Position numbers and translations under genes: made by a program
The notes under the pieces: generated by a model
What the model was told of the DNA's origin: nothing
The model's input: the letters and a program-made list of their open reading frames with translations, nothing else
Databases searched by the model: none
Shown: positions 3,088 to 33,976 of the stretch, in pieces
Layout of the letters: each line of letters begins with the position of its first letter
Position numbering within the stretch: position 1 is the first letter of the stretch
Assembly (NCBI RefSeq): GCF_001940235.1
Contig: NZ_MJIE01000001.1
Span: 1,240,001-1,304,000 of the forward strand
Direction of reading: 5' to 3'
Source: Hornefia porci
GTDB taxonomy: Bacteria > Bacillota > Clostridia > Peptostreptococcales > Anaerovoracaceae
DNA: 64,000 nt

Positions 3088-4947
3088 ATGAAACTAAACT
3101 ATGACAGAAAATCAAAAGATCCTACCTACTTCATCCAGCAGGGCTTTCGCAACGGCAAGAAGACCTCGACCCGAAACGTAGCTCGGATCGGGAAACATTC
3201 GGAGCTTCTGGCGATCACAGACGATCCTCTGACTTACGCCAAAGAACAGGTCGCCAAATACAATGAGGAGTGGAAAAAACAGAAGGTAACGATGGAAATG
3301 TCCATCAACTTCGATGAAAAAGTCAAAGCGACGGATGATCCCGCTTCTGCCTCTACCCTGCGCAATATCGGTTACTTCTATCTGCAGCAGATCTATCATG
3401 ACCTGCAGATCCGTTCCTTCTTTCAGTCCGTCCTCAGGGATCGGAAGATCGAATTCGATCCGGATCTGGTGAACCGGTTCCTGACCTATGCGCGCATACT
3501 TCATCCCGGCTCCAAGCTGGATACCTGCCGCCATCTGAACCGTTACTATGAGCAGCCTGATTTCGACTATCAGCATATCCTGCGGACCATGGATCTGATG
3601 CAGGAGAACTACGATGACTATCTGGTTCATCTGTTTGAGCACAGCAACGACATCGTGAAGAGAAATACTTCCGTCTGCTACTATGACTGCACCAACTTCT
3701 ACTTCGAGATCGAATCTCCCGATGATGACTACCTTAATCCGGTAACCGGAGAGATCATTAAAGGTTTCCGCAAGTATGGCTTCGGCAAGGAGCATCGTCC
3801 CAATCCCCTGGTAGAGATGGGACTGTTCATGGATTCTGACGGCATTCCTCTCTCCATGTGTCTGACTTCCGGATCAGATAACGAACAGACAACCGCCATC
3901 CCTCTGGAGAAGAAACTGACCGAGATGTTCGATGGCAAGCCCTTCATCTACTGTGCGGATGCGGGGCTGGGGTCCTACAATATCCGCAAGTTCAACTCCA
4001 TGGGAGGGAGGGCTTTCGTTATCACCCAGTCCATCAAAAAACTGTCCGAGCGGCTGCAGCAGGCGGTTTTCAATGACTGTGACTATCGTCTGTTGTCCAA
4101 TGACCGCCCGGTATCCCTGGAGAAGATGTTCTCTTTTGACCGCGAAGAACCGAAAAACCGCAGCCTTTATGATGACAAAGCCTACAAGATCGTCAACGCA
4201 GATAACCTGGTCGATCTGGATATGTGCGAAGAGAAGCGTTACAAGAACGGCAAGGTGAAGCAGGTCAAGGTGAAAGGCGTGCTGGAGCAGAAACTGGTTA
4301 TCACCTTCTCCCGAAAGATGATGGAATATCAGCGATATATTCGCAATCGTCAAGTTGCAAGAGCGGAAGCCCTTCTGAAGAACCTTGACCCTGATACCTA
4401 CAAGAAAGGACCTCACGATGTGACGCGCTTTATCAAGCGTACTTCCAGAGGAAAAGCCGGAGAGAAAGCCGTTGACCGTTATGCGATCGACAAGGAACTC
4501 ATCGCAGAGGAAGAAAAGTATGATGGTTTTTATGCCATCGCCACCAATCTGGATGATGAGGCAAAGACGATCGTAGAGATCAGTGCCCGGCGACATAGGA
4601 TCGAAGACTGTTTCCGTGTGATGAAGACTAGCTTCTCCGGTCGCCCGGTCTACCATCATAACCGGGAGCGCATCACCGCACACTTTATGATCTGCTACAC
4701 ATCGCTTCTGATCTACCGGTTGCTGGAGAAGAAGATGGTTGATGCCGGGGAGCACTTCACCACAGACAATATCATTGAGACCATCAAGAACATGGACGTT
4801 GCCAACGTGCAGGATATGTACTATATGGCGACCTATACCGGTTCCCGGGCACTGACCGCGATCAACGGGATCCTTCCTCTGGATTTGGATCGGAAAAACT
4901 ACCTGCCAAAGGATCTCAACAAAAAAATCAGAAAAATTTCAAAGTGA
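3088..4947 (+). CDS. IS1634-family (IS4-like DDE) transposase
   Basis: 619-residue transposase, a full length for the family. The N-terminus has YDRKSKDPTYFIQQGFRNGK and NVARIGK, typical of IS1634-type enzymes. The DDE core shows the first acidic patch at YYDCTNFYFE, the second at YCADAGLGSYN and the third at RRHRIEDCFRVMK, matching the IS4-group pattern of Arg, Glu and Lys around the last catalytic acid. There is no internal stop or frameshift, so it looks functional. The gene appears to be expressed from a promoter abutting the ATG without a ribosome-binding site. It inserts between the adhesin regulatory region and the IS21 remnant. Confidence 0.92.
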   Translation: MKLNYDRKSKDPTYFIQQGFRNGKKTSTRNVARIGKHSELLAITDDPLTYAKEQVAKYNEEWKKQKVTMEMSINFDEKVKATDDPASASTLRNIGYFYLQQIYHDLQIRSFFQSVLRDRKIEFDPDLVNRFLTYARILHPGSKLDTCRHLNRYYEQPDFDYQHILRTMDLMQENYDDYLVHLFEHSNDIVKRNTSVCYYDCTNFYFEIESPDDDYLNPVTGEIIKGFRKYGFGKEHRPNPLVEMGLFMDSDGIPLSMCLTSGSDNEQTTAIPLEKKLTEMFDGKPFIYCADAGLGSYNIRKFNSMGGRAFVITQSIKKLSERLQQAVFNDCDYRLLSNDRPVSLEKMFSFDREEPKNRSLYDDKAYKIVNADNLVDLDMCEEKRYKNGKVKQVKVKGVLEQKLVITFSRKMMEYQRYIRNRQVARAEALLKNLDPDTYKKGPHDVTRFIKRTSRGKAGEKAVDRYAIDKELIAEEEKYDGFYAIATNLDDEAKTIVEISARRHRIEDCFRVMKTSFSGRPVYHHNRERITAHFMICYTSLLIYRLLEKKMVDAGEHFTTDNIIETIKNMDVANVQDMYYMATYTGSRALTAINGILPLDLDRKNYLPKDLNKKIRKISK

Positions 4948-5031
4948 TATTTCCATACAACTTTTTGAAACACAACGGGGGTATGTAAGTTTTTCTGTAA
5001 ATAAAGGTCTTCCGTGAGAAGTGTATAGTGG

Positions 5032-5055
5032 GCTGGTCAGTTCCTTCTGACCAGC
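5032..5055. other. Perfect 9-bp hairpin after the IS1634 element
   Basis: GCTGGTCAG (5032-5040), loop TTCCTT, then CTGACCAGC (5047-5055). It is GC-rich but lacks a clear T-tract on either side. It may terminate transposase transcription weakly or be an IS end structure. Confidence 0.4.
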
Positions 5056-5090
5056 TCTTGAACATTGTTTAACAGAATGATCTTTCCATG

Positions 5091-5126
5091 TCAAGACATG
5101 CCCTTGTCAAGGAGGGCATGTCTTGA
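5091..5126. other. Perfect 13-bp hairpin in IS junction
   Basis: TCAAGACATGCCC (5091-5103), 10-base loop, GGGCATGTCTTGA (5114-5126). There is no T-tract. It lies just past the istB stub, in sequence with no recognisable gene (4948-5148), and may mark a deletion junction or IS end. Confidence 0.4.
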
Positions 5127-5148
5127 ACATACGATCTTGTGATCTCTG

Positions 5149-5202
5149 CTATTCAGGCAAGCGCATCCGTCTAAGTTTCTCGTAGGTATCCCTATTCATC
5201 AT
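5149..5202 (-). pseudogene. istB: istB remnant of IS21-family element
   Basis: Starts ATG ATG inside the end of istA, the usual translational overlap of IS21 elements. It encodes only 17 residues, MMNRDTYEKLRRMRLPE, then TAG. This is the normal IstB N-terminus; the AAA+ ATPase body (about 250 residues) is absent. The sequence after the stop does not resume an IstB frame, so a deletion is more likely than a point mutation. Without IstB the element should not transpose by itself. Confidence 0.75.
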
Positions 5203-6743
5203 GGCCACCTCCAAAGTACGAAGCACCACGAAGGTGGGTGTAGCGGTTCACAGAGTCTTCCGATTCTTTCGAATCTTCCTCTTTAGGGAGGTCTTGACCG
5301 GCTTCGAGAATCAATCTAATATTCTTGTACCGGGGATTCGGGATGTGCACCAGTGCGACAGCGCAGGCATTTTCAAGGCGGCCGGAGGAGTATTTATCAG
5401 CCAGCTTCAGGAGGGACAGGCAACCTTTGTAAGCCTGTTCTTCCACCCGGTATGCTGCAAACATCCTGTCTACAACTTCTCTGGTATGCGGACCTATGTT
5501 TTCCGCCCAGCGTTTGAATCTGCCGCTGTCCCATTCGCTGTACAGTTGGTGGTTTTGAGGCATATGGTCTACGTTCGTTGCATACTGACCTATACCGTCC
5601 GTGCAACCTTTTATGGTTGCAGATACGCATGCCCTGGTAGTAAATCTCAACTACGTTATTGGTACTGCGGACATCCACTTTCTTCCTGACGTATGCGTAT
5701 GGAACAGAGTAGTTCTGCTTGTCGAAGGAGATGTGGTAGTTCATCTGAACCGTTGCCACCTTCCACGTTGCATACTCGTATCTGTACCTCGGCAATGGCT
5801 TCATGAACGGAAGCTCTTCTTCGGCATATACAGAGAAGCGTGAGCCCTCCTTCTTCTGAAACGGCTTATGGTTGAATTCTTCGAGCTCCTTGCGGATCGC
5901 TTTGTTAAGTTCATGGAGACTGAAGAATCTCCTGTTACGAAACCTTGAAGCAAGCCGTCTGGTCAGGGCACCGACCGATCCTTCTACCGCAGCTTTGTCC
6001 TTTGGAGCCAGAACACGTGCCGGCAGCAATGCGGTGTTGTAATGATCCGCAAGTTCCTCATAACTCTTGTTGAACACCGTATCCTCAGGTTTCTTGTTCT
6101 TTATGACACCTGTTTTAAGGTTGTCACATACAAGAAGCCTGGTACTGCCACCGAAGTATGCATACATGTGTACATGGGCATTAATCCAGGCTTCCTGTTT
6201 CATGTTTGTAAATGCTTCCGCATAGCAGAACATGCTGAACGGAAGCGTAGCTACAAACAGGCAGCATTTCTGGTCTTTGTCGTCGTCAGCGTCATAGTAC
6301 GAGAACGTGGTGCCGGCCCAGTCCACCATGAGTTTGTCGCCGGGCTTATGACTTATGTGCATCGTCAGTCTATGCTGATCGACATAGTCAGAATACAGTT
6401 TACAGAACTGAGAATACATGTACGGAGGCTTCCTGGCCTCTCTGCACTGATCACAGTACTCATCCCACAACGAACGAAGAGTGACACCGTCTTTGATAAG
6501 TTCTTTGTGTACCCATTCAAAGTCTGGCGTGACTTGAACTGGGATCAGTTCCTTCTCGGGAAAGAGAAGCTTAACGATTTCCGACTCTTCCATCTGCAGA
6601 AACTCAGGAAGTGGCTTGCCACTTCGTATAGATGCTGCTACAACGGACGACACCGTATTTCTCGATACTTTCAGTATCTTGGCTATCGCTCGCTGAGACT
6701 TCCCGTCAGCAATACACTGCAGGATCTTTTTTTCTTTGGACAT
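5192..6743 (-). pseudogene. istA: Frameshifted IS21-family transposase IstA
   Basis: ATG at 6743 follows GGGAGG at 9-bp spacing and begins MSKEKKILQCIADGKSQRAI, with the HTH GKSQRAIAKILKVSRNTV. The integrase core follows: DKLMVDWAGTTF (first Asp), LLVCDNLKTGV (second Asp), KDKAAVEGSVG (Glu). The frame breaks near 5594. After NHKRLHGR the expected continuation GQYATNVDHMP reads in another frame, explained by one extra base. It then runs to GGGHDE at 5192. The C-terminal part (RFKRWAENIGPHT, KLADKYSSGRLE) is well preserved, so the lesion is recent or a sequencing error. The stop overlaps the istB stub. Confidence 0.85.
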
Positions 6744-6797
6744 TAATGTAGTCCTCCCTTCAAATGAATTCGGCTTCTGCCGTAAATTCATTCTAAA

Positions 6798-6900
6798 GGG
6801 TGGCGCTCTACATCGGAATACATATTCATTCCGACTGGCTTCGCCAAGTGGACAGGGTGGCTCTCTCTATCGGACGAGGTGGCTCCCAGACGGCGGAATA
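6798..6900. repeat. IS21 left-end multiple terminal repeats
   Basis: Three related direct repeats upstream of istA: at 6798 (GGGTGGCGCTCTACATCGGA), 6854 (AGGGTGGCTCTCTCTATCGG) and 6877 (AGGTGGCTCCCAGACGGCGG). IS21 elements carry such repeats at their ends as transposase-binding sites. The last repeat abuts the IS1182-type fragment, so the IS21 terminus is about 6900. Confidence 0.65.
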
Positions 6901-7304
6901 CTCAAGCATTTCTGTGCAATTGGCCAGAAGCTGTTTCGCACAGGGGCAAAATGCAGGCTGCGAAACCTGGCAATGGTTGCATGGTCCGGCGAAGCTTTCC
7001 CTTCCAGCAAGTACATGTAGTTAATGTCTCTGTTACAAGCAAGTTCAATTGCCCGACTCGTGTATTTCCCGTCAAGGTAAGCATAGAGAAGTAGTTTCAA
7101 CATCTGGCGTGGGGTTACTTGATTTTCCTTCAGCAAACTGTAAGTTTCGTAAAGACAAGTCAGATCCATTTCCTCCACGAACTGACTCAGTAACCGCACA
7201 CTGTCATTATCCGGAATGATGATGTTAAGATTCATTGGAATTTTAAGTTGAAAACATTTCTCATTCGTTGTATAGTTTTTGTCAGTGGTAGATAGCTTTT
7301 TCAT
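6901..7304 (-). pseudogene. Truncated IS1182-type transposase N-terminus
   Basis: ATG at 7304. The first about 125 residues match the IS1182 group: LLSQFVEEMDLTCLY, TPRQMLKLLLYAYLDGKYTS, RAIELACNRDINYMYL and SPDHATIARFRSLHF. After HFAP the correct frame shifts: the alternative frame reads CAKQLLANCTEMLE, as in intact relatives, implying a lost base near 6953. The gene is then cut at about 6900 by the IS21 end, so the catalytic domain is missing. TAAAAT lies six bases before the ATG, and no ribosome-binding site is visible. Confidence 0.8.
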
Positions 7305-7570: not shown

Positions 7571-7963
7571 TTACCCTTTTTCTTTGTATTGTCTTCTTAT
7601 GATTACAACTCCTAGGAGAACAACCACGACATGCGGGATATATATTGCCAAATCTTTCCAACCCGTCATTCCCATAACAGCGATAAGGGAAACTAAAACA
7701 GCGAGAAAATATGGCACAATCAGTAAACATCGACCAACAATATTTCTAAATGCCATAAAATGCACCAACACCGCTAACCCCAGAAAATATGTTCCCCATG
7801 TCATTGGATTAATAGTAGCAAACATTCGCGTTAGTGGATGTGTATCCATATCTGCAACTCCAAACATCCAATAAAAGTACAACGCAAAATACAGTAGCAT
7901 AATGACGTCTAACACTATTGCTGTCACACGTAACAAAGTGACCTTTGAACTTATTTCTTGCAT
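7571..7963 (-). CDS. Four-TM small membrane protein
   Basis: 130 residues with about four hydrophobic segments: near 10-33 (VTAIVLDVIMLLYFALYFYW), 55-72, 76-96 and 103-122, and a basic tail (RRQYKEKG). ATG at 7963 has GGAGGG nine bases upstream and overlaps the end of the phospholipase-like gene by 13 bp, implying coupled translation. No family is recognised. As last gene after a secreted PLA2-like protein and a thioredoxin-fold protein, it could be an export, immunity or protective membrane protein, but nothing in the sequence proves this. AT-rich like its neighbours. Confidence 0.8.
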   Translation of the reverse strand: MQEISSKVTLLRVTAIVLDVIMLLYFALYFYWMFGVADMDTHPLTRMFATINPMTWGTYFLGLAVLVHFMAFRNIVGRCLLIVPYFLAVLVSLIAVMGMTGWKDLAIYIPHVVVVLLGVVIIRRQYKEKG

Positions 7964-8565
7964 GAGAAGTTCCCTCCTTTCTTCGTTACATTACTGGTTT
8001 TAATTTGCAGCCACGCCTTTATCACCTTTGCCATAGCTTTCTGCTTGACGCCTGTCATCTTATTGTAATTTGTATTGATGTAAGATAAGAAAGTTTTATC
8101 ACAAGAGCATTTATGCCTACCTTTGTTCTCATAACAAACATCGTGATTTTTGCACCCTTTATCAAGTAAATCGATTGGCGTACCTGAGCCATAATAAGGA
8201 CCACACCAATTCCCATATACCGGGAAAGCTATTGCTTTCTTTTGAGCAGCAGCCATGCTCTGGCTTGACCCTCGTATTGTTATTTTTTCGTTGTCGTTTG
8301 ACTGGCTTAATCCAAACGCATATACCTGATCGGCTAAATCAAGTTGCTTTCCACTTACCCCATCTTGGAGTGCGGCGTCTCTATCGTATATTACGTTACC
8401 GTCATCTTTAACTACAAAATACTTCTGGATATTGCTCACTTCTTTATCGAGCTCGCGTAATTCATTGGTACTCATCGCATTTACGATTGAATGCGTCGGT
8501 GCAACAACAACACCAACAATTATTAATACTGCTATGATTTTTTGAATCCTGTTCCGCATGGACAT
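7951..8565 (-). CDS. Secreted phospholipase A2-like protein
   Basis: 204 residues. Start ATG at 8565 behind AAAGGAGG. Signal peptide about 1-30 (KIIAVLIIVGVVVAPTHSIVNA). After a charged linker the core (about 115-160) carries the PLA2 signature: a calcium-loop-like segment GNWCGPYYGSGTPIDLLDKG, then CKNHDVCY with the catalytic His-Asp pair, then CSCDKTFLSYI with the second Asp in the C-x-C-D context of the family. Six Cys in the mature region suggest three disulphides. PLA2 enzymes hydrolyse the sn-2 ester of phospholipids with Ca2+. Secretion and Cys content suggest an extracellular lipase, toxin or antagonistic factor. The adjacent thioredoxin-fold gene may supply disulphide formation. Function is inferred; activity is unproven. 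Confidence 0.78.
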   Translation of the reverse strand: MSMRNRIQKIIAVLIIVGVVVAPTHSIVNAMSTNELRELDKEVSNIQKYFVVKDDGNVIYDRDAALQDGVSGKQLDLADQVYAFGLSQSNDNEKITIRGSSQSMAAAQKKAIAFPVYGNWCGPYYGSGTPIDLLDKGCKNHDVCYENKGRHKCSCDKTFLSYINTNYNKMTGVKQKAMAKVIKAWLQIKTSNVTKKGGNFSCKK

Positions 8566-8567
8566 AT

Positions 8568-9056
8568 TTACCTCCTTTCCTCACTTTCTATAAACTTCTT
8601 GAATTTTTCCTTGTATTGTTTGGAATTTATCTCATCATAACCAAATTGGACGGCTTGTCCTTTTTCAAACTTAACTATAGTAGGGATGCTATCAATTGAT
8701 ATTGAATCTAAATATTTCCTTTCTTCGTCAGTGATTTCATTCTTAAGTTTGACATAGTACATCCGATTGTTCGCATCACCTTCATAGTCAATATACAACT
8801 CACGAATATTGTTTATGCTCTCTCTGCAATCAATACAGTTGCTTCTTCCTATGTAATAGCAATTTCTATCATTAGGATTTTTGCTTGCTTCCTGAAGATC
8901 CATGACCGATTTCGTTTCAAATGATCCAGTTATGGCAACATAAGAACTTTCAGCAAAATAAGGCTCAACGATCGGATAAAAATACATTCCAACCTTTATA
9001 AGAACTATAGCTAAAAAAACCGCTATTATTTCGTTTTTCGTAAAGCTAATCCTCAT
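8568..9056 (-). CDS. Membrane-anchored thioredoxin-fold protein
   Basis: 162 residues; ATG at 9056 after AAGGGG. One N-terminal TM helix (about 9-29, IIAVFLAIVLIKVGMYF), then an extracellular thioredoxin-like domain with a CxxC site in RSNCIDCRESI (about residue 74) and a cis-Pro loop SIDSIPTIVKFEKGQ. The layout resembles PedC/BrcD-type bacteriocin accessory thioredoxins. It lies directly between the genes of two secreted proteins, two bases from the Cys-rich PLA2-like gene, so a role in oxidising or reducing that protein's cysteines outside the membrane is plausible. An extra Cys occurs at NCYYIGR. Confidence 0.75.
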   Translation of the reverse strand: MRISFTKNEIIAVFLAIVLIKVGMYFYPIVEPYFAESSYVAITGSFETKSVMDLQEASKNPNDRNCYYIGRSNCIDCRESINNIRELYIDYEGDANNRMYYVKLKNEITDEERKYLDSISIDSIPTIVKFEKGQAVQFGYDEINSKQYKEKFKKFIESEERR

Positions 9057-9065
9057 AGTGCCCCT

Positions 9066-9626
9066 TTATTCGAATCTTTTCGCATAAGCCTTAAATGATA
9101 TCTTCTTACCGTTTGTGTTGTATGCTGAAACAGTGTAGGCCAAATATACTCTTGTCCCCTGGCCATTCACCGTCCCATATCTCACTGCATCACTGCGAGT
9201 AATAGTCATGGTTTTTGCTTTTCCTGCCTGAACGGTCATTGAATGTATAGCAGTACTGCCTCCGATGGAACCCTTATATGCAGTAACGGTAATGGGGTTA
9301 CTGCCGATATTTGTGATTTTCACAGTAGTATATGGCTTACTCCCTGTAGTAAGAAGGGAAACTGCCATTGAAAGAGACTTTTTAACGCTATATTCATTCT
9401 TGTATGATTTGTTCCACAAAACTGCAGTTCCTTTTGTCAGTAGCGCAACCTGATCCTCTGCAGTTAAGTCTGTCTTGTCTAGAGACAACTCGTTTAAAAT
9501 GATTTGTTCTTCTTGCTTTGATAGCGATTGTATTTTTGCGCCTTTAACCTCATCCGATGCGAACACCAAAGAACTTTGTGAGCTTAATATACATACAGCC
9601 ACCAAAGTGATTATTAATTTTTTCAA
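9066..9626 (-). CDS. Small secreted protein of unknown function
   Basis: Signal peptide (LKKLIITLVAVCILSSQSSLVFA) then about 160 residues with a C-terminal beta-rich segment (YTTVKITNIGSNPITVTAYK ... VYLAYTVSAYN). The start is unclear. An ATG at 9635 directly abuts the GGGAG motif, so the in-frame TTG at 9626, nine bases after GGGAG, is preferred. First gene of the leftward operon, with its own promoter. There are no Cys in the mature part, unlike the PLA2-like partner. No family recognised. Confidence 0.72.
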   Translation of the reverse strand: MKKLIITLVAVCILSSQSSLVFASDEVKGAKIQSLSKQEEQIILNELSLDKTDLTAEDQVALLTKGTAVLWNKSYKNEYSVKKSLSMAVSLLTTGSKPYTTVKITNIGSNPITVTAYKGSIGGSTAIHSMTVQAGKAKTMTITRSDAVRYGTVNGQGTRVYLAYTVSAYNTNGKKISFKAYAKRFE

Positions 9627-9675
9627 AATTCTCATCTCCCATTAGTTGTGCACTTTACTATTTTCTATATTATAT

Positions 9676-9704
9676 AATATAAACTAACAGCATTATAATG
9701 TCAA
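9676..9704 (-). promoter_or_regulatory. Sigma-A promoter of the leftward PLA2 operon
   Basis: Minus strand TTGACA (9704-9699), 17-bp spacer, TATATT (9681-9676), about 40 bp before the start of the first secreted-protein gene. Confidence 0.7.
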
Positions 9705-9861: not shown

Positions 9862-9876
9862 TGCGTGGGAGATTAT

Positions 9877-10230
9877 ATGGTACAAGAGCGAAATAACTTT
9901 AAATTGGGAACCGTGGAGATGCTAGTCCTATCTCTACTGTCACAAAAAGACCTGTACGGCTATGAGATTAGCTTACTGCTAAAAGATTTATCAGCGGGTT
10001 CTTTTGTTGTTCCAGAAGGAAGTCTCTACCCCATATTATACAAATTGGAAGATAAGAAACATATAACCTCACATTCCGTTCAAATTGGAAAAAGAAGAGT
10101 GAGGAAATATTACCATATTGAAGGTACTGGGATAGAAAGGCTTAATCAGCTTTTGTCTGAGTACCGTTTAATCGCTGATAGCATTGAATTGATTTTGGCT
10201 GCAAATCTTTTAGATGAGAAGGGGGATTAG
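9877..10230 (+). CDS. PadR-family transcriptional regulator
   Basis: 117 residues from ATG 9877, chosen over the GTG at 9865 because GTGGGAG sits five bases before the ATG. Winged-helix features: GTVEMLVLSLLSQKDLYGYEI, then VVPEGSLYPILYKLEDKKHI (recognition helix) and a wing with KRRVRKYYHIEGTG, followed by the short C-terminal dimer helix. PadR repressors usually control a linked membrane or export gene. It is followed three bases later by a HAAS-type membrane protein, the common pair in Firmicutes. It probably represses its own operon and possibly the divergent PLA2 operon. Confidence 0.88.
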   Translation: MVQERNNFKLGTVEMLVLSLLSQKDLYGYEISLLLKDLSAGSFVVPEGSLYPILYKLEDKKHITSHSVQIGKRRVRKYYHIEGTGIERLNQLLSEYRLIADSIELILAANLLDEKGD

Positions 10231-10232
10231 TA

Positions 10233-10619
10233 ATGCATGTTAACACAGAAGTTCAAAAATATATAAAACAAATACACTATCTTCTTCCCGCCTTCAACAA
10301 ATCCGAGAGATTATTTTTATCAGATTTATCAGAACGAATATATGACTATTTAGATGACAACCCTAGTGCTGAAATTAAGGACATTGAGAACCAATTTGGC
10401 ACTCCGCTGGAAATATCTCAAAGTTATATTTCCTCACTGGACACAGATGAGTTGCTCAATCGAATCTCTGCAAGAAAACTTTTACGTCGCGTTTTCATTA
10501 TCATCACAATAAGCTTAATTCTAGGGCTCAGCATCTTTAGTGCCTTTACGTATAAGGCATATATACACTACAAAAACACCGTTATTACTGAAACTGAAAC
10601 TGTTATTGATAAAGATTAG
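10233..10619 (+). CDS. HAAS/DUF1700-like membrane protein
   Basis: 128 residues. The N-terminal half is a helical HAAS-type signalling domain (YIKQIHYLLPAFNKSERLF, DLSERIYDYLDDNPSAEIKD, QFGTPLEISQSYI). One TM helix follows near 88-108 (VFIIITISLILGLSIFSAF) and a short outer tail. Such proteins are nearly always encoded next to PadR regulators and are thought to transmit membrane signals or serve as PadR targets. ATG 10233 has GGGGG upstream and follows padR by two bases. Confidence 0.75.
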   Translation: MHVNTEVQKYIKQIHYLLPAFNKSERLFLSDLSERIYDYLDDNPSAEIKDIENQFGTPLEISQSYISSLDTDELLNRISARKLLRRVFIIITISLILGLSIFSAFTYKAYIHYKNTVITETETVIDKD

Positions 10620-10653
10620 GGTTAACCCAAAATTGTAAAGGAGGGAGATCAAT

Positions 10654-11142
10654 ATTATTAAGCGAATCATGTTCATTGTTACACTGTGCGCACTTCTTTT
10701 CTGCACTTCTCTTACCGTCTTTGCAGATTCATCCGATTGCAAAGTCGAAACTGAGTATTTAAGCGATGGTAGCTATTACGAAACTGTCATAATCCAAGAA
10801 TTAACACCTCTTATGGTTGACGCTGCGCCATCATTATCTAAATCAAAGACCATAACAGGTTCCAAAACAACGTACTATAAAAACTCTTCCGGAAAGGTCA
10901 TGTGGTATGTCAAAGTGACAGGAATTTTCACATATGGAGGCGGAAGCGCAAAATGCACTAACGCCTCAGTTACTGCCGAATCAAAAAACAGTGCCTGGAA
11001 AGTATCCAACAAATCATCTTGGAAAACGAGCAATAAAGCTTTCGCTAAAGCAACTGGTACACACTATTTCAGTGGAATGCCAAAAGAATCCTTCACTCGC
11101 ACCGTAACACTTATTTGTAGCGCGACAGGGAAGATGTCTTAA
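10654..11142 (+). CDS. Small secreted protein, probable AUU start
   Basis: The strong site AAAGGAGG (10637-10644) is nine bases from an in-frame ATT at 10654, but 24 bases from the first ATG (10669). From ATT the product starts (M)IKRIMFIVTLCALLFC, giving the Lys-Arg n-region a signal peptide needs; from the ATG there is no basic residue. The mature part (about 140 residues) has KTITGSKTTYYKNSSGKVMW, YVKVTGIFTYGGGSAKCTNA, SKNSAWKVSNKSSWKTSNKA and CSATGK. This Ser/Lys-rich beta pattern is common in small secreted clostridial proteins of unknown role. Third gene of the padR operon. Confidence 0.7.
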   Translation: MIKRIMFIVTLCALLFCTSLTVFADSSDCKVETEYLSDGSYYETVIIQELTPLMVDAAPSLSKSKTITGSKTTYYKNSSGKVMWYVKVTGIFTYGGGSAKCTNASVTAESKNSAWKVSNKSSWKTSNKAFAKATGTHYFSGMPKESFTRTVTLICSATGKMS

Positions 11143-17068: not shown

Positions 17069-17908
17069 TTATTCAGTAGCGTCATAATCTGACAAGAGTT
17101 CCTTCAACACATGAATAACGTCTGCGTATTCAATTCCTTTAGCATAGGAGAATTGTCTGCAGTACTTGTCCCACAGTTTTCGCAGGTCTACACTTTCCGA
17201 TATCAGACTGAGTATCTTCTCTCTGTTATTACCGATGTATTCCAAGCTGTCCCTGTGACGTGCAGTCGCAGTGAGCGCTTCGCAAAATACATCTCGATCA
17301 AATGACTCCGTTTTATATAGAACATACAGATCGTAGTAATCACGGGGACGAGTGGAAAAAACATTCCTTCTTAAGATTGTTTCGACCTTCTCTGCAAGAA
17401 TCGTTTCTACATTATACGACCACAGGCCGAATTTTTCGTCATCAAACATTGAAGAGAATTCCCGTCTTATTGCGTCCGGAGTCATAATATCTCCCGTTGA
17501 TATATCCATGCTCATGGGAGCTGCTATTTTCCCATAATCAGCCTGGATCATCACCCTGTATCCACCATACATGTCGTCATCCCGGATTGGCTCCATGTAT
17601 TTGAATTGAAAAGAAATACCATCCCCGGCATCGACAGCACATATCTCAGCTATTGCGCTTTCTATAGTTTCTGGTGTAAGTGGCAGATTTCTTAGTGTTG
17701 TATCAAGATCCATAGTCGAACGGTTTGACAATCCGACTATGGATGCAATTAAAGTTCCACCCTTTACAACAAATTTTTCTCTGTATCTTGTCATGGAAAG
17801 ACGAATAAGGAATCTCTCATTCAGGTAATGCTGCAGGACAAGTTGTGCAGGAATTTGCTTTTCCCTGGCGATATTCCGAATTTTTGCTTTAAGACTCATG
17901 TCATTCAT
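17069..17908 (-). CDS. AbiEii-type nucleotidyltransferase toxin (cassette 1)
   Basis: 279 residues. Nucleotidyltransferase features: FVVKGGTLIASIVGLSNRST followed by MDLDTTLRN (acidic pair), MSMDISTGDIMTPDAI, and NVETILAEKVETILRR with RPRDYYDLYVL. This is the AbiEii/MenT-like pattern: the toxin transfers nucleotides and blocks growth, in abortive phage infection for AbiE systems. The ATG at 17908 overlaps the antitoxin stop by one base (TAATG), implying coupled translation. The pair sits inside the conjugation operon but has its own promoter and terminator. A second, divergent AbiE pair occurs at 25856-27276. Confidence 0.9.
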   Translation of the reverse strand: MNDMSLKAKIRNIAREKQIPAQLVLQHYLNERFLIRLSMTRYREKFVVKGGTLIASIVGLSNRSTMDLDTTLRNLPLTPETIESAIAEICAVDAGDGISFQFKYMEPIRDDDMYGGYRVMIQADYGKIAAPMSMDISTGDIMTPDAIRREFSSMFDDEKFGLWSYNVETILAEKVETILRRNVFSTRPRDYYDLYVLYKTESFDRDVFCEALTATARHRDSLEYIGNNREKILSLISESVDLRKLWDKYCRQFSYAKGIEYADVIHVLKELLSDYDATE

Positions 17909-30742: not shown

Positions 30743-33700
30743 CTATTCCTTCAGATCGTCCTGGTCCTCCGAAAGCTTATGCATTTGTCTTTTCTTGTAT
30801 GCGATTCCTGCTGCGGTGGTACCCGCTACCAGCATCAGCGCGATATATCCCAGAAGTTTTGTCCTGTCTCCGGTCTTCGGCGGAGCAGAGTTCTCCGGCG
30901 GAGTATCTGGCTTCTTCGGGAAATGAACGGTCTGGTCCTTGTCGGAAAGGTCTGCGTGGCTGGTAACGGTGATCCCGTTATGGATCAGATCCTCGAACAC
31001 GACCACATCGTCTCCCTGAAGCTTTTCGGCGTCAAAGGTGAACTGCATCTCGACCGTTCCGTCTTTCTTCTCTGCGGTAAACTTCTTCTCGGAAGTCACG
31101 GCAGAAAGTCCGTCACGGACCGGCTTTCCTGTTCCTTTGTCCATCAGGACACCCTTTACCGTGTATTCCTTTCCCACAACAAGGTTGTGATAGCTGACGG
31201 TATCCACGATGGAGACCTTCTTGCCCCGGGAAGCTTCATGATTTCCGGACTTGCTGTCCTTTGCCGTTGTTTTGATCTCCGGATGCCAGATCGTCTGATC
31301 CTGATCGGTGAGATCCCCGTGAGAGGCGACCCTGATTCCTTCATAGAAGAGATCCTCAAACACAACAGTGGTCCTGCCCTTCAGGGAAGATGCATCGAAA
31401 GTGAAATTCATTTCCACCGTTCCGTCGGCCTTGTGTGCCGTAAACTTTTTCTCGGAAGTGACCTTCTTTCCATTCACCATCACCGGTTTTCCGGTCTCCT
31501 TGTCCATCAAAACGCCCTTTACTGTGTATTCTTTTCCCGGAATCAGATTGCGGTAGTTTACCTTGTCCACAATAGTGGTTTCCTTGTGGGTTTCCCCGAC
31601 TTCGTCCTTTGTCTTCCGGTCCTCCGCATGGGTCTTTACCTCCGGGAAGTGGATGGTCTGGCCTTCATCATGAATGTCTGCGTGAGATGCGATGTTCACA
31701 TCGTTCTCATAGAGATCCTCGAACACCACCGTTGAGGTTCCGGCAAGGCCCGCACCGCTGAAGACAAACTCCACATCCACGGTTCCGTCCTTCTTCTCCG
31801 GCACGAATTTCTTCTGGGAAACCACCGGCTTTCCGTTCACCAGAAGCTCCTTTCCGGTCTTCTGGTCCATGAGCTTTCCTTTCAGAACATATTCCTTTCC
31901 GGGAACCAGATTGGTGTAGGAGACGGTGTCCATAAGTTTCACATCCTTCTCTGCGGCAGAAAGATTCATGCCGGTCTTTTCTGCTTTCGCCTTGGTTCCG
32001 ATGGTGATCAGATCATCTGTGATGGTCTCCAGGTCCACGGTTCCTGTGCGGGTTTTCTCATCCACGGTGAAGCTGAACTTCTGCAGAACATATCCTTTGT
32101 TGTTCTCGCAGCGCATCTCTTCGATGGTGTAGGTGTCATAAGGCAGAGCCCCTGCGTCGGTGATCATGGCAGCTTTGCTCCCGAACTGTCCTGTGCCGAA
32201 GAACACGCCGCATCGGATCTGCTCCGCTCTCTTTTTCAGAGACTCGGTAGAGATCTGTTTCTCGTTCAGAAGATCATCGAACGGATTCTGGCAGCGGGCA
32301 TTGTCTTTCCCTTCTTCCTCGTCCAGATCACCAGCGGCTCTTCGGTCCTTCGTGGAGAAGAATCCGTTTTTGTCCGTGACCACCACATGGGTCTCGCCGT
32401 TTGATGCGGCAATGATTTTGAATGGGACAAAGGCAAATCTTCTGGAATCGCCGTCACCAATCTTGGTTCCCTGAACGTCGCTGCGGTAGACATAGTTGTC
32501 AAAGGTCAGCGCCATTTCGTTCTGTCCGTCGTCGTAGGAAACGGTTTTTCCGTCTTCCCGGATCTTGAACAGATGCTCGCTCTTGTCCGTCCTCTGATAG
32601 GTCTTGTTGGTCTTCGTCTCGCGGATGGTGTAGGTTCCGTATGGAAGATCATCCGGAAGGGTCTCTGCCGTGTAGGCCTTTTTTGCTTCATTCCAGTGGA
32701 CGGTGATCTTTCCCATATCCTCACCGGACTTTACACGCTTGACTTTTCCGGAATCAATCAGATCCTTCTTTGAGGAAAGGGCCTTCCAGTCCACTTTGTT
32801 TTCCGGACTTCCGATATCACTGCGGACCAGCACATCGTGACCGGATACGTTTTTGATGGTCATCTCGATCCCGTTGAGATCAGCGCCGCCGAGTGCCTCT
32901 GATTTCTTCAGCTCCTTATCCCGCTTTACGATCTGAACGCCGCCACGCTGGACGTTTTCTCTCACGGGATCTGAAGTAATGTCGATGATCTCTCCGTCTT
33001 TCCGGATGCTGATGGCTCTGGACCACTTGTCATTGAGCTGATATCCGGAAGGCGCTTTGGTCTCTTTCACCAGATAATCGCCATAGGGCAGGGCGTCGGC
33101 AGCAGACTTTGCAAGTCCGTTCTTGTCCGTCCTGATCGTAACTGCCGCTTCTCCCTGGTTGATTTTCTTTTCTCCGAGGAAAACGGCATGACCGCTTTTG
33201 TTAAATGCGGTGAATTCCGCGCCTTCCAGCGATGCATCTCCCTGTGCGTACGGTTCATCCAGATCGTTATCGATCTTCTGCAGGCGGAATCCGCCCCGGA
33301 TATCCTCCAGGTATCCCACCACCATGTCCTGCACGCCGCTCATGGTGCTGATGAACACCTTGAAATTTCCCGGGATGGCCTCATCTTTTTCCGAATCCGC
33401 ATTCCAGAGTCCGTCTCCCAGTTTCTTTGCCTTTGTCCAGATATCCCCCAGACCGGAAGCTTTCGTTCCGCCCCAGGTCGCCATATCAGAGGGCCTTCCT
33501 TCGTAAATATATGCCATGGCAAGATGAGCGATGGCCCAGTCTTTGGTGAAGTTTCCGGTGTAGTATGCGCCTTTGATGTTGCTGATATTCTTCTCGTATC
33601 CCGGGTAGGACGGGGAGTAGAACACGATGTTTCTGAGGGCATTCCATTTTCCTTTGTCGTCGGAATCGGTGATTACTTTATCTACCGTGACCTTTCCGGT

Positions 33701-33976
33701 GGGCGGCGATGCCTTGGCCGGCTGGACGCAGTAGGTATATCTGCTTCCCAGCCCGTCTCCCAGGTCGCATTTCCTGGAATTGCTGTAGCCTCCGTCACCG
33801 GAGCCGTAGGTGATCCTGCCTCCGTCAGTGACCGTGTAGCTGCTTCCCACCTTGCCGGTGAATGCGCTGGCCGTTTCCGTCACCGCAGGAAGGGCGGACC
33901 CCAGCACCATCATGGAAGCAAAGGCGATGGTGAGCAGCTGCTTGAATTTCTGTTTGAATTCTGTTTTCCTGTTCAA
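30743..33976 (-). CDS. Sortase-anchored surface protein with T-Q ester (VaFE) repeats
   Basis: 1077 residues from TTG 33976 (GGAG seven bases upstream). Signal peptide about 1-38 (LLTIAFASMMVLGSALPAV). Thioester-domain-like region about 45-215 with conserved Cys in RYTYCVQPAKASPP. SpaA-like domains about 230-340 and 345-490 (APSGYQLNDKW; LPYGTYTIRETKT), then a third about 500-660. Three T-Q ester (VaFE) domains about 680-790, 800-905 and 910-1020, each with DxVxYxNLxxGKEY, VVFEDL and a terminal DxxQT. Sorting signal PPKTGD, TM helix (LLGYIALMLVAGTTAAGIAY) and charged tail. A conjugative-element adhesin, probably helping cell contact. Confidence 0.9.
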   Translation of the reverse strand: MNRKTEFKQKFKQLLTIAFASMMVLGSALPAVTETASAFTGKVGSSYTVTDGGRITYGSGDGGYSNSRKCDLGDGLGSRYTYCVQPAKASPPTGKVTVDKVITDSDDKGKWNALRNIVFYSPSYPGYEKNISNIKGAYYTGNFTKDWAIAHLAMAYIYEGRPSDMATWGGTKASGLGDIWTKAKKLGDGLWNADSEKDEAIPGNFKVFISTMSGVQDMVVGYLEDIRGGFRLQKIDNDLDEPYAQGDASLEGAEFTAFNKSGHAVFLGEKKINQGEAAVTIRTDKNGLAKSAADALPYGDYLVKETKAPSGYQLNDKWSRAISIRKDGEIIDITSDPVRENVQRGGVQIVKRDKELKKSEALGGADLNGIEMTIKNVSGHDVLVRSDIGSPENKVDWKALSSKKDLIDSGKVKRVKSGEDMGKITVHWNEAKKAYTAETLPDDLPYGTYTIRETKTNKTYQRTDKSEHLFKIREDGKTVSYDDGQNEMALTFDNYVYRSDVQGTKIGDGDSRRFAFVPFKIIAASNGETHVVVTDKNGFFSTKDRRAAGDLDEEEGKDNARCQNPFDDLLNEKQISTESLKKRAEQIRCGVFFGTGQFGSKAAMITDAGALPYDTYTIEEMRCENNKGYVLQKFSFTVDEKTRTGTVDLETITDDLITIGTKAKAEKTGMNLSAAEKDVKLMDTVSYTNLVPGKEYVLKGKLMDQKTGKELLVNGKPVVSQKKFVPEKKDGTVDVEFVFSGAGLAGTSTVVFEDLYENDVNIASHADIHDEGQTIHFPEVKTHAEDRKTKDEVGETHKETTIVDKVNYRNLIPGKEYTVKGVLMDKETGKPVMVNGKKVTSEKKFTAHKADGTVEMNFTFDASSLKGRTTVVFEDLFYEGIRVASHGDLTDQDQTIWHPEIKTTAKDSKSGNHEASRGKKVSIVDTVSYHNLVVGKEYTVKGVLMDKGTGKPVRDGLSAVTSEKKFTAEKKDGTVEMQFTFDAEKLQGDDVVVFEDLIHNGITVTSHADLSDKDQTVHFPKKPDTPPENSAPPKTGDRTKLLGYIALMLVAGTTAAGIAYKKRQMHKLSEDQDDLKE

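Follow-up and report, generated by a model that had tools for sequence, protein, structure and literature searches.

In animals, secreted phospholipase A2 (PLA2) is important both in antibacterial defense and in venoms. The stretch of Hornefia porci DNA analyzed here, 64,000 nucleotides in total and called the window below, encodes a protein of this kind between a thioredoxin-like protein and a small membrane protein, and the question it raises is what a bacterium uses such a set of genes for. According to the list of open reading frames (ORFs) and their translations, the genes form a tight leftward four-gene array running from 9635 to 7571 on the minus strand, with 9 bp between A and B, 2 bp between B and C, and a 13-bp overlap of C and D. 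The features are as follows.

9676 to 9704, minus strand: sigma-70-type promoter-like site upstream of gene A (TTGACA-17-TATATT, 11 of 12 matches, 17-bp spacer)
9066 to 9635, minus strand: gene A, first gene of the operon, encoding an orphan secreted-type protein of 189 aa
8568 to 9056, minus strand: gene B, encoding a protein of 162 aa that has a single membrane segment at its N terminus and carries CIDC in a thioredoxin-like domain
7951 to 8565, minus strand: gene C, encoding a secreted phospholipase A2 precursor of 204 aa
7571 to 7963, minus strand: gene D, encoding a candidate immunity protein of 130 aa with four membrane helices
7440 to 7560, minus strand: hairpin with a U run 3' of gene D, a likely terminator (-32 kcal/mol, z -2.59)

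The coordinates, the gaps and the C-D overlap agree with the four closely packed leftward genes described in the initial annotation. The single promoter and terminator which it also proposed stand in part: the hairpin with its U run and the 11-of-12 site speak for them, but the region contains 7 promoter-like sites against 10.1 expected from shuffles, so that such sites are no commoner than in shuffled sequence and the match upstream of A is weak evidence. The operon is adjoined by divergent genes encoding a PadR regulator, a DUF6120 protein and a secreted-type protein of 157 aa (9865 to 11142, plus strand).

Gene C encodes a phospholipase A2 as judged by family profile, active-site residues and fold comparison, and its enzyme activity is predicted. 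In the family profile search it reaches 42.0 bits against PF00068, above the curated cut-off of 32.1, and its resemblance to PLA2 therefore exceeds chance. The protein has a signal-peptide-like N terminus, a conserved N-terminal domain (about residues 33 to 112) and a PLA2 domain (about 113 to 204). It carries the motifs GNWCGPYYGSG, CKNHDVCY and CSCD, the His-Asp pair, Tyr and second Asp (H141, D142, Y145 and D156), the Ca-loop glycines G122 and G126, and six cysteines at positions 121, 138, 144, 153, 155 and 202. Profile, motifs, cysteines and N terminus thus agree with the secreted PLA2-signature protein that had been claimed from the sequence, and the 204-residue protein, for which a comparison with PLA2 folds had been suggested as a check, matched that fold, the nearest structures being those of rice PLA2 (2wg7 to 2wg9). 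Across the PLA2 relatives, H141 and Y145 are kept in 32/32 and D142 in 31/32, and the N-terminal domain is acidic (negative in 31/32). A cationic PLA2 domain as a trait of the family was ruled out, as the charge is positive in 18/32 with a median of +1, the domain encoded in the window being the highest at +11.

Gene C is present as a single copy in its own genome, and relatives of it are few: PLA2 matches were found in 3 of 197 genomes of the family and in 17 of 393 of the order, own genome included in both, in line with the rarity in Clostridia that had been expected. In only 3 of these 17 does a secreted PLA2 adjoin a gene for a four-transmembrane (4-TM) protein. The survey of the phylum gave 5 of 398 genomes, own included; of its loci L119 to L122, L119 and L120 were inspected, and L120 encodes a short PLA2-like protein of another type. 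Phages searched with C alone yielded no relative, and those searched with A6 yielded one distant protein. Other genomes of the order (L089, L091, L092 and L094) encode PLA2-like C-terminal domains in proteins of about 216 to 238 aa without a signal peptide, a separate uncharacterized type.

How much of the operon forms a unit can be judged from near relatives. A Clostridia metagenome-assembled genome (G059, apparently the same as L011) lacks A but carries B, C and D, ordered as in H. porci and 40, 48 and 34% identical; it is the one genome besides H. porci with this arrangement. In another genome of the same genus (G402, the same as L012, Eubacterium minutum), C and D are present and B is missing, and no signal peptide is visible in that C. 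Gene A belongs to no Pfam or NCBIfam family, was absent from the plasmids searched and has a single marginal match besides its own among 297 genomes of the order. With no more than that match for A and no copy of it in G059, B-C-D stands as the conserved unit, to which A has been added locally. The four-gene co-conservation anticipated at the outset therefore survives for B-C-D, whereas a four-gene module was ruled out with A an orphan.

A small membrane protein is a recurrent companion of such enzymes in Gram-positive bacteria. One scan of species genomes gave 74 PLA2-relative loci, which were divided, from the titles of the records, into 44 Gram-positive loci and 30 others. A partner was defined as a same-strand ORF of 50 to 200 aa with at least 2 hydrophobic segments, starting from -80 to +250 bp of the PLA2 stop, and the same rule was applied, as a control, to every other ORF in the same loci that reached 150 aa. 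In the Gram-positive loci with a scored PLA2 ORF a partner was present in 30/42, against 12/331 control ORFs (28/42 against 6/331 when at least 3 hydrophobic segments were required), so that the linkage of PLA2 gene and partner gene exceeds chance and chance adjacency of the two was ruled out. The other loci gave a partner at 1/28 PLA2 genes and 3/180 controls. On inspection a partner was also recognized in L017, at a distance of 1 kb downstream; in L024, upstream and as a fusion; in L028, as an overlapping ORF; and in L054, where the contig ends within the PLA2. This brings the total to 34 of 44 Gram-positive loci. The 10 without a partner are L021, L022, L023, L025, L033, L044, L051, L052, L076 and L080, among which L021, L076 and L080 have a shortened PLA2 only and L033 ends soon after the PLA2. 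At 70% identity the PLA2s fall into 32 clusters; the strict rule assigns a partner to 21 of these, and the number rises to 24 when L017, L024 and L028 are included. A polytopic membrane protein thus adjoins most Gram-positive PLA2 relatives, which fits the self-protection that had been proposed for gene D.

Six plasmid loci, chosen from 13 plasmid records, were also examined, and 5 of them have a partner: downstream of the PLA2 in L004 and L006, upstream in L007, and in L005 (1684 to 2214) and L009 (4170 to 4700), from Vagococcus and Enterococcus plasmids, as a divergent fusion of an XRE DNA-binding domain with a partner-like 3-TM domain. The sixth, L008, has a PLA2 without the N-terminal domain and no partner. 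On this Enterococcus faecalis plasmid the PLA2 lies between secreted-type proteins of 164 and 345 aa (4228 to 6375). In phage phi575 (L010) the partner is upstream of the PLA2. Pfam searches with nine PLA2-linked partners gave no family at cut-off, except for the helix-turn-helix part of L009. A profile built from nine Bacilli partners and run on 4,556 ORFs reached, beyond its training set, Macrococcus (1.9e-10), Peptoniphilaceae (1.4e-4 to 5.7e-4), the Enterococcaceae XRE fusions (8.2e-4 and 8.6e-3), Nesterenkonia (1.2e-3) and Streptococcus (8.6e-3 and 0.037), while the other actinobacterial partners scored 0.017 or weaker, or not at all. One match below 0.01 was located away from a PLA2 gene (L060, 9149 to 9340). 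Upstream of the Kocuria PLA2, a second ORF matches the actinobacterial partner profile (L020, 5189 to 5674, E 9.3e-17).

The thioredoxin-like gene is a less regular companion. Gene B encodes a CIDC motif and one N-terminal hydrophobic segment, with a thioredoxin-like domain predicted to face outward. These features fit the outward CxxC thioredoxin-fold protein of the initial annotation, but the fold assignment is held back by scores below every curated thioredoxin cut-off (Thioredoxin_2, E 0.011 and 16.5 bits against 27; TIGR01068, E 4.8e-4 and 20.2 against 96.8 bits). A profile made from three B proteins (A5) matches 11 ORFs, in the window, in L002/L011 (one contig), L006, L034, L037, L039, L048 and L013, and twice in L024, and all 11 adjoin a PLA2 gene or are one gene away. 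Overall, a thioredoxin-like gene is beside the PLA2 in 7 of 44 Gram-positive loci, and none was found with B in the plasmid search. Two natural fusions link PLA2, membrane partner and thioredoxin-like protein. In L024, a partner domain (E 1.6e-27) is joined to a thioredoxin-like domain (1.1e-8); L024 is within the training set of the profile giving 1.6e-27, and the nine-member profile also finds it, at 4.2e-22. In L119 (1489 to 2229, minus strand), an anchored thioredoxin-like domain, recognized by the B profile (7.7e-8) and with no Pfam thioredoxin family reported, forms one protein with a PLA2 domain (2.3e-25); the neighboring 4-TM ORF has no match to the D profile (E 43). This PLA2 is probably inactive because the catalytic Asp and Tyr positions are changed, and the fusion is possibly a decoy or a regulator. 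The A5 matches at other PLA2 loci and the two fusions bear out the thioredoxin-PLA2 linkage that gene order had suggested. At E 0.001, neither VKOR nor a DsbD/CcdA domain was detected in the H. porci genome, which leaves B without an obvious redox partner; the thioredoxin search of this genome found one other protein and not B. Several thioredoxin-linked loci come from what we take to be anaerobes, which would fit a dedicated helper.

Gene D encodes four hydrophobic segments, and the predicted model consists of four long helices (pLDDT 83.1), as expected of the 4-TM protein that had been claimed; among the 23 Foldseek matches listed, none was at or below 0.001. Its relatives share a pattern around NPMTxGxY and MGMT and occur in 13 of 297 genomes of the order, own included. 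D adjoins a PLA2 gene in only three genomes, H. porci (G000), G059 and G402, the last of which has a second D without PLA2, and most D relatives have no PLA2 nearby. In G199 a PLA2 tail (E 1.8e-4) is followed by a shortened D. In G005 an intact D directly follows what appears by eye to be a PLA2 tail, the locus stopping about 0.3 kb upstream, and the search of family genomes gave no PLA2 match there. G174, G324, G333, G336 and G032 have D relatives and no PLA2 match in the search of order genomes, and the remaining D relatives are in G132, G196 and G396. Homology between D and the 3-TM partners was not detected with 3 or with 9 rows, the hhalign probability being at most 9% with 9 D relatives. 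The reverse search with the partner profile found relatives in 2 of 398 phylum genomes and in 3 plasmid records, one being the known PLA2 plasmid, and the four new 3-TM relatives (L124 to L127) have no PLA2 within the 3 to 6 kb examined. Relatives of D and of the 3-TM partners without PLA2 may also reflect an unrelated function of the partner.

The operon is located among genes of mobile elements. On the same strand, genes for a lysozyme-CHAP protein, a TraG-type ATPase, a coupling protein, a relaxase and a Toprim protein lie between 11.3 and 29.4 kb, and guaA is at 36.9 to 38.5 kb. The conjugation genes are interspersed with an AbiEii-type nucleotidyltransferase toxin domain (17069 to 17908, minus strand) and a covalent adhesin (30743 to 33976, minus strand), a surface protein of 1077 aa in which T-Q ester, SpaA and thioester domains were recognized. 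Downstream of the module there are transposase-like ORFs, recognized by eye from the translations (5397 to 6791 and 6867 to 7304), and a transposase with a DDE domain is encoded at 3088 to 4947. Related PLA2 genes are carried by a 4.4-kb plasmid on which two further genes are annotated, by a 7.1-kb plasmid, by a conjugative plasmid, where class III lanthipeptide and radical-SAM genes adjoin the PLA2 gene, by a plasmid with an epipeptide cluster, and by phages. The PLA2 of phage Javan179 (S. equi 4047) is 25% identical to C over 70% of its length and has a hydrophobic ORF of 70 aa 68 bp downstream, which shows no significant similarity to the partner profile (E 3.1). According to the available part of one report, the S. 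equi genome contains a prophage PLA2 98% identical to SlaA (PMC2654543), and we infer that Javan179 is that prophage.

The best reading of these data, to which we assign a probability of roughly 0.55, is that the PLA2 is secreted and acts against bacteria, that the membrane protein makes the producer immune, and that the thioredoxin-like protein is an optional disulphide helper. C would leave the cell via Sec, the route suggested by its N terminus, as a precursor with the conserved N-terminal domain, would fold with three disulphides, and would cut the phospholipids of competing bacteria from outside. D, in the membrane of the producer, would shield it from C, while B, anchored and facing outward, may help C to form or correct its disulphides, and the B-C-D module would travel as cargo of mobile elements. 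This reading rests on observations of the genes themselves, the PLA2 fold and residues, the recurrent linkage, the fusions and the partners without PLA2. It is favored by the downstream partner rule and its control, by both fusions, by the retention of partners where PLA2 is missing, by the mobile settings (small and conjugative plasmids, phages and ICE genes), by the nearness of peptide-antibiotic genes, and by analogy with the TslA/TilA precedent, as far as the available text describes it (PMC10730906). It is weakened by the presence of D beside PLA2 in only three genomes and by the 10/44 partnerless loci, and we also counted against it that the PLA2 domain is not generally cationic, that B stays under the thioredoxin cut-offs and that D is unlike the 3-TM partners. 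Moreover, a role in maturation or sensing accounts for some of what is seen, the XRE fusions in particular. It is unlikely, in our judgment, that the partner works with the thioredoxin-like protein in the maturation or release of a PLA2 used in nutrition or signaling, with no immunity involved. The fusions of L024 and L119 would fit one folding complex and the partner is translated with the PLA2, but partners also accompany PLA2s that lack a Cys pair (L026, L031, L043, L060 and L078), and 3-TM or D relatives persist without PLA2, where a maturation factor without its substrate should be lost.

C could be directed at a host, with the membrane protein only shielding the producer from its own enzyme, as the related gene on Streptococcus phage Javan179 and the contribution of SlaA to virulence, stated in the accessible portion of PMC2654543, would allow. 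Its relatives, however, are spread over soil, food, marine and skin bacteria (lifestyles being taken from general knowledge), on tiny plasmids and near peptide-antibiotic genes, and we regard a host-directed role as decidedly unlikely. Very improbable, in turn, is a partner that senses membrane damage or the PLA2 and controls PLA2 expression. The fusion of a partner domain to a DNA-binding domain in two plasmid types, divergent from the PLA2 and related to the partners (E 8.2e-4 and 8.6e-3), suggests sensing there, but none of the other partners has a DNA-binding domain, and D, with 130 aa and four helices, is too small for one. We give hardly any credence to self-protection by B through reduction of the disulphides of C at the producer surface; the partner-thioredoxin fusion of L024 would suit it, while a DsbD/CcdA-type electron carrier was not found in the genome and the thioredoxin domain of L119 is fused to the PLA2, as a folding helper could be.

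If a secreted antibacterial PLA2 with a membrane antidote is indeed what these loci encode, the same fold is used between bacteria, protection of membranes from PLA2 becomes testable with proteins of 80 to 130 residues, and there is a simple explanation of where phage-borne PLA2 virulence genes came from. More tentatively, and with the odds somewhat against it, the loci might represent an undescribed class of Sec-secreted PLA2 bacteriocins across Bacillota and Actinomycetota. Every bacteriocin would be paired with a small polytopic membrane protein for immunity and, in certain lineages, also with a disulphide helper of its own, and the streptococcal phage PLA2 would be a captured member of this interbacterial class.

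As far as the consulted excerpts go, PLA2 as a toxin domain and a Gram-positive phospholipase toxin with immunity are already known (PMC3482391 and PMC10730906), and in the excerpted open-licence literature the combination of a stand-alone secreted PLA2, a polytopic membrane partner and a linked thioredoxin was not recognized. With secreted PLA2s of PF00068, C shares the profile, the fold, the His/Asp/Tyr/Asp residues, the Ca-loop glycines and the Cys pattern, but it is bacterial, its N-terminal domain is acidic and conserved, and genes for membrane and thioredoxin-like proteins are linked to it. SlaA/SlaB (PMC2654543) likewise are secreted Gram-positive PLA2s on a mobile element, but are known as virulence factors, and no thioredoxin-like neighbor is annotated. 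The thioredoxin-like PedC/BrcD proteins (TIGR01295) are similarly encoded with a disulphide-containing antibacterial, PedC raising the potency of pediocin in the portion of PMC4919988 at hand; B reaches 16.3 bits against a cut-off of 120, by which membership was ruled out. Tox-PLA2 of polymorphic toxins is also a PLA2-fold domain proposed as an interbacterial toxin, but in the accessible text it has another motif (CxxHxxxYxN, PDB 1kp4), occurs in long repeat-bearing toxins and is listed in a row with a dash where other rows name immunity families (PMC3482391). TslA/TilA similarly pairs a Gram-positive antibacterial phospholipase with an adjacent immunity gene, of which orphan copies are reported in the available part of PMC10730906. 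TslA, according to the same text, relies on helper proteins and on a targeting domain of the type VII system, and its immunity protein TilA is a lipoprotein, whereas the module described here has a signal peptide, a PLA2 fold and a polytopic membrane partner.
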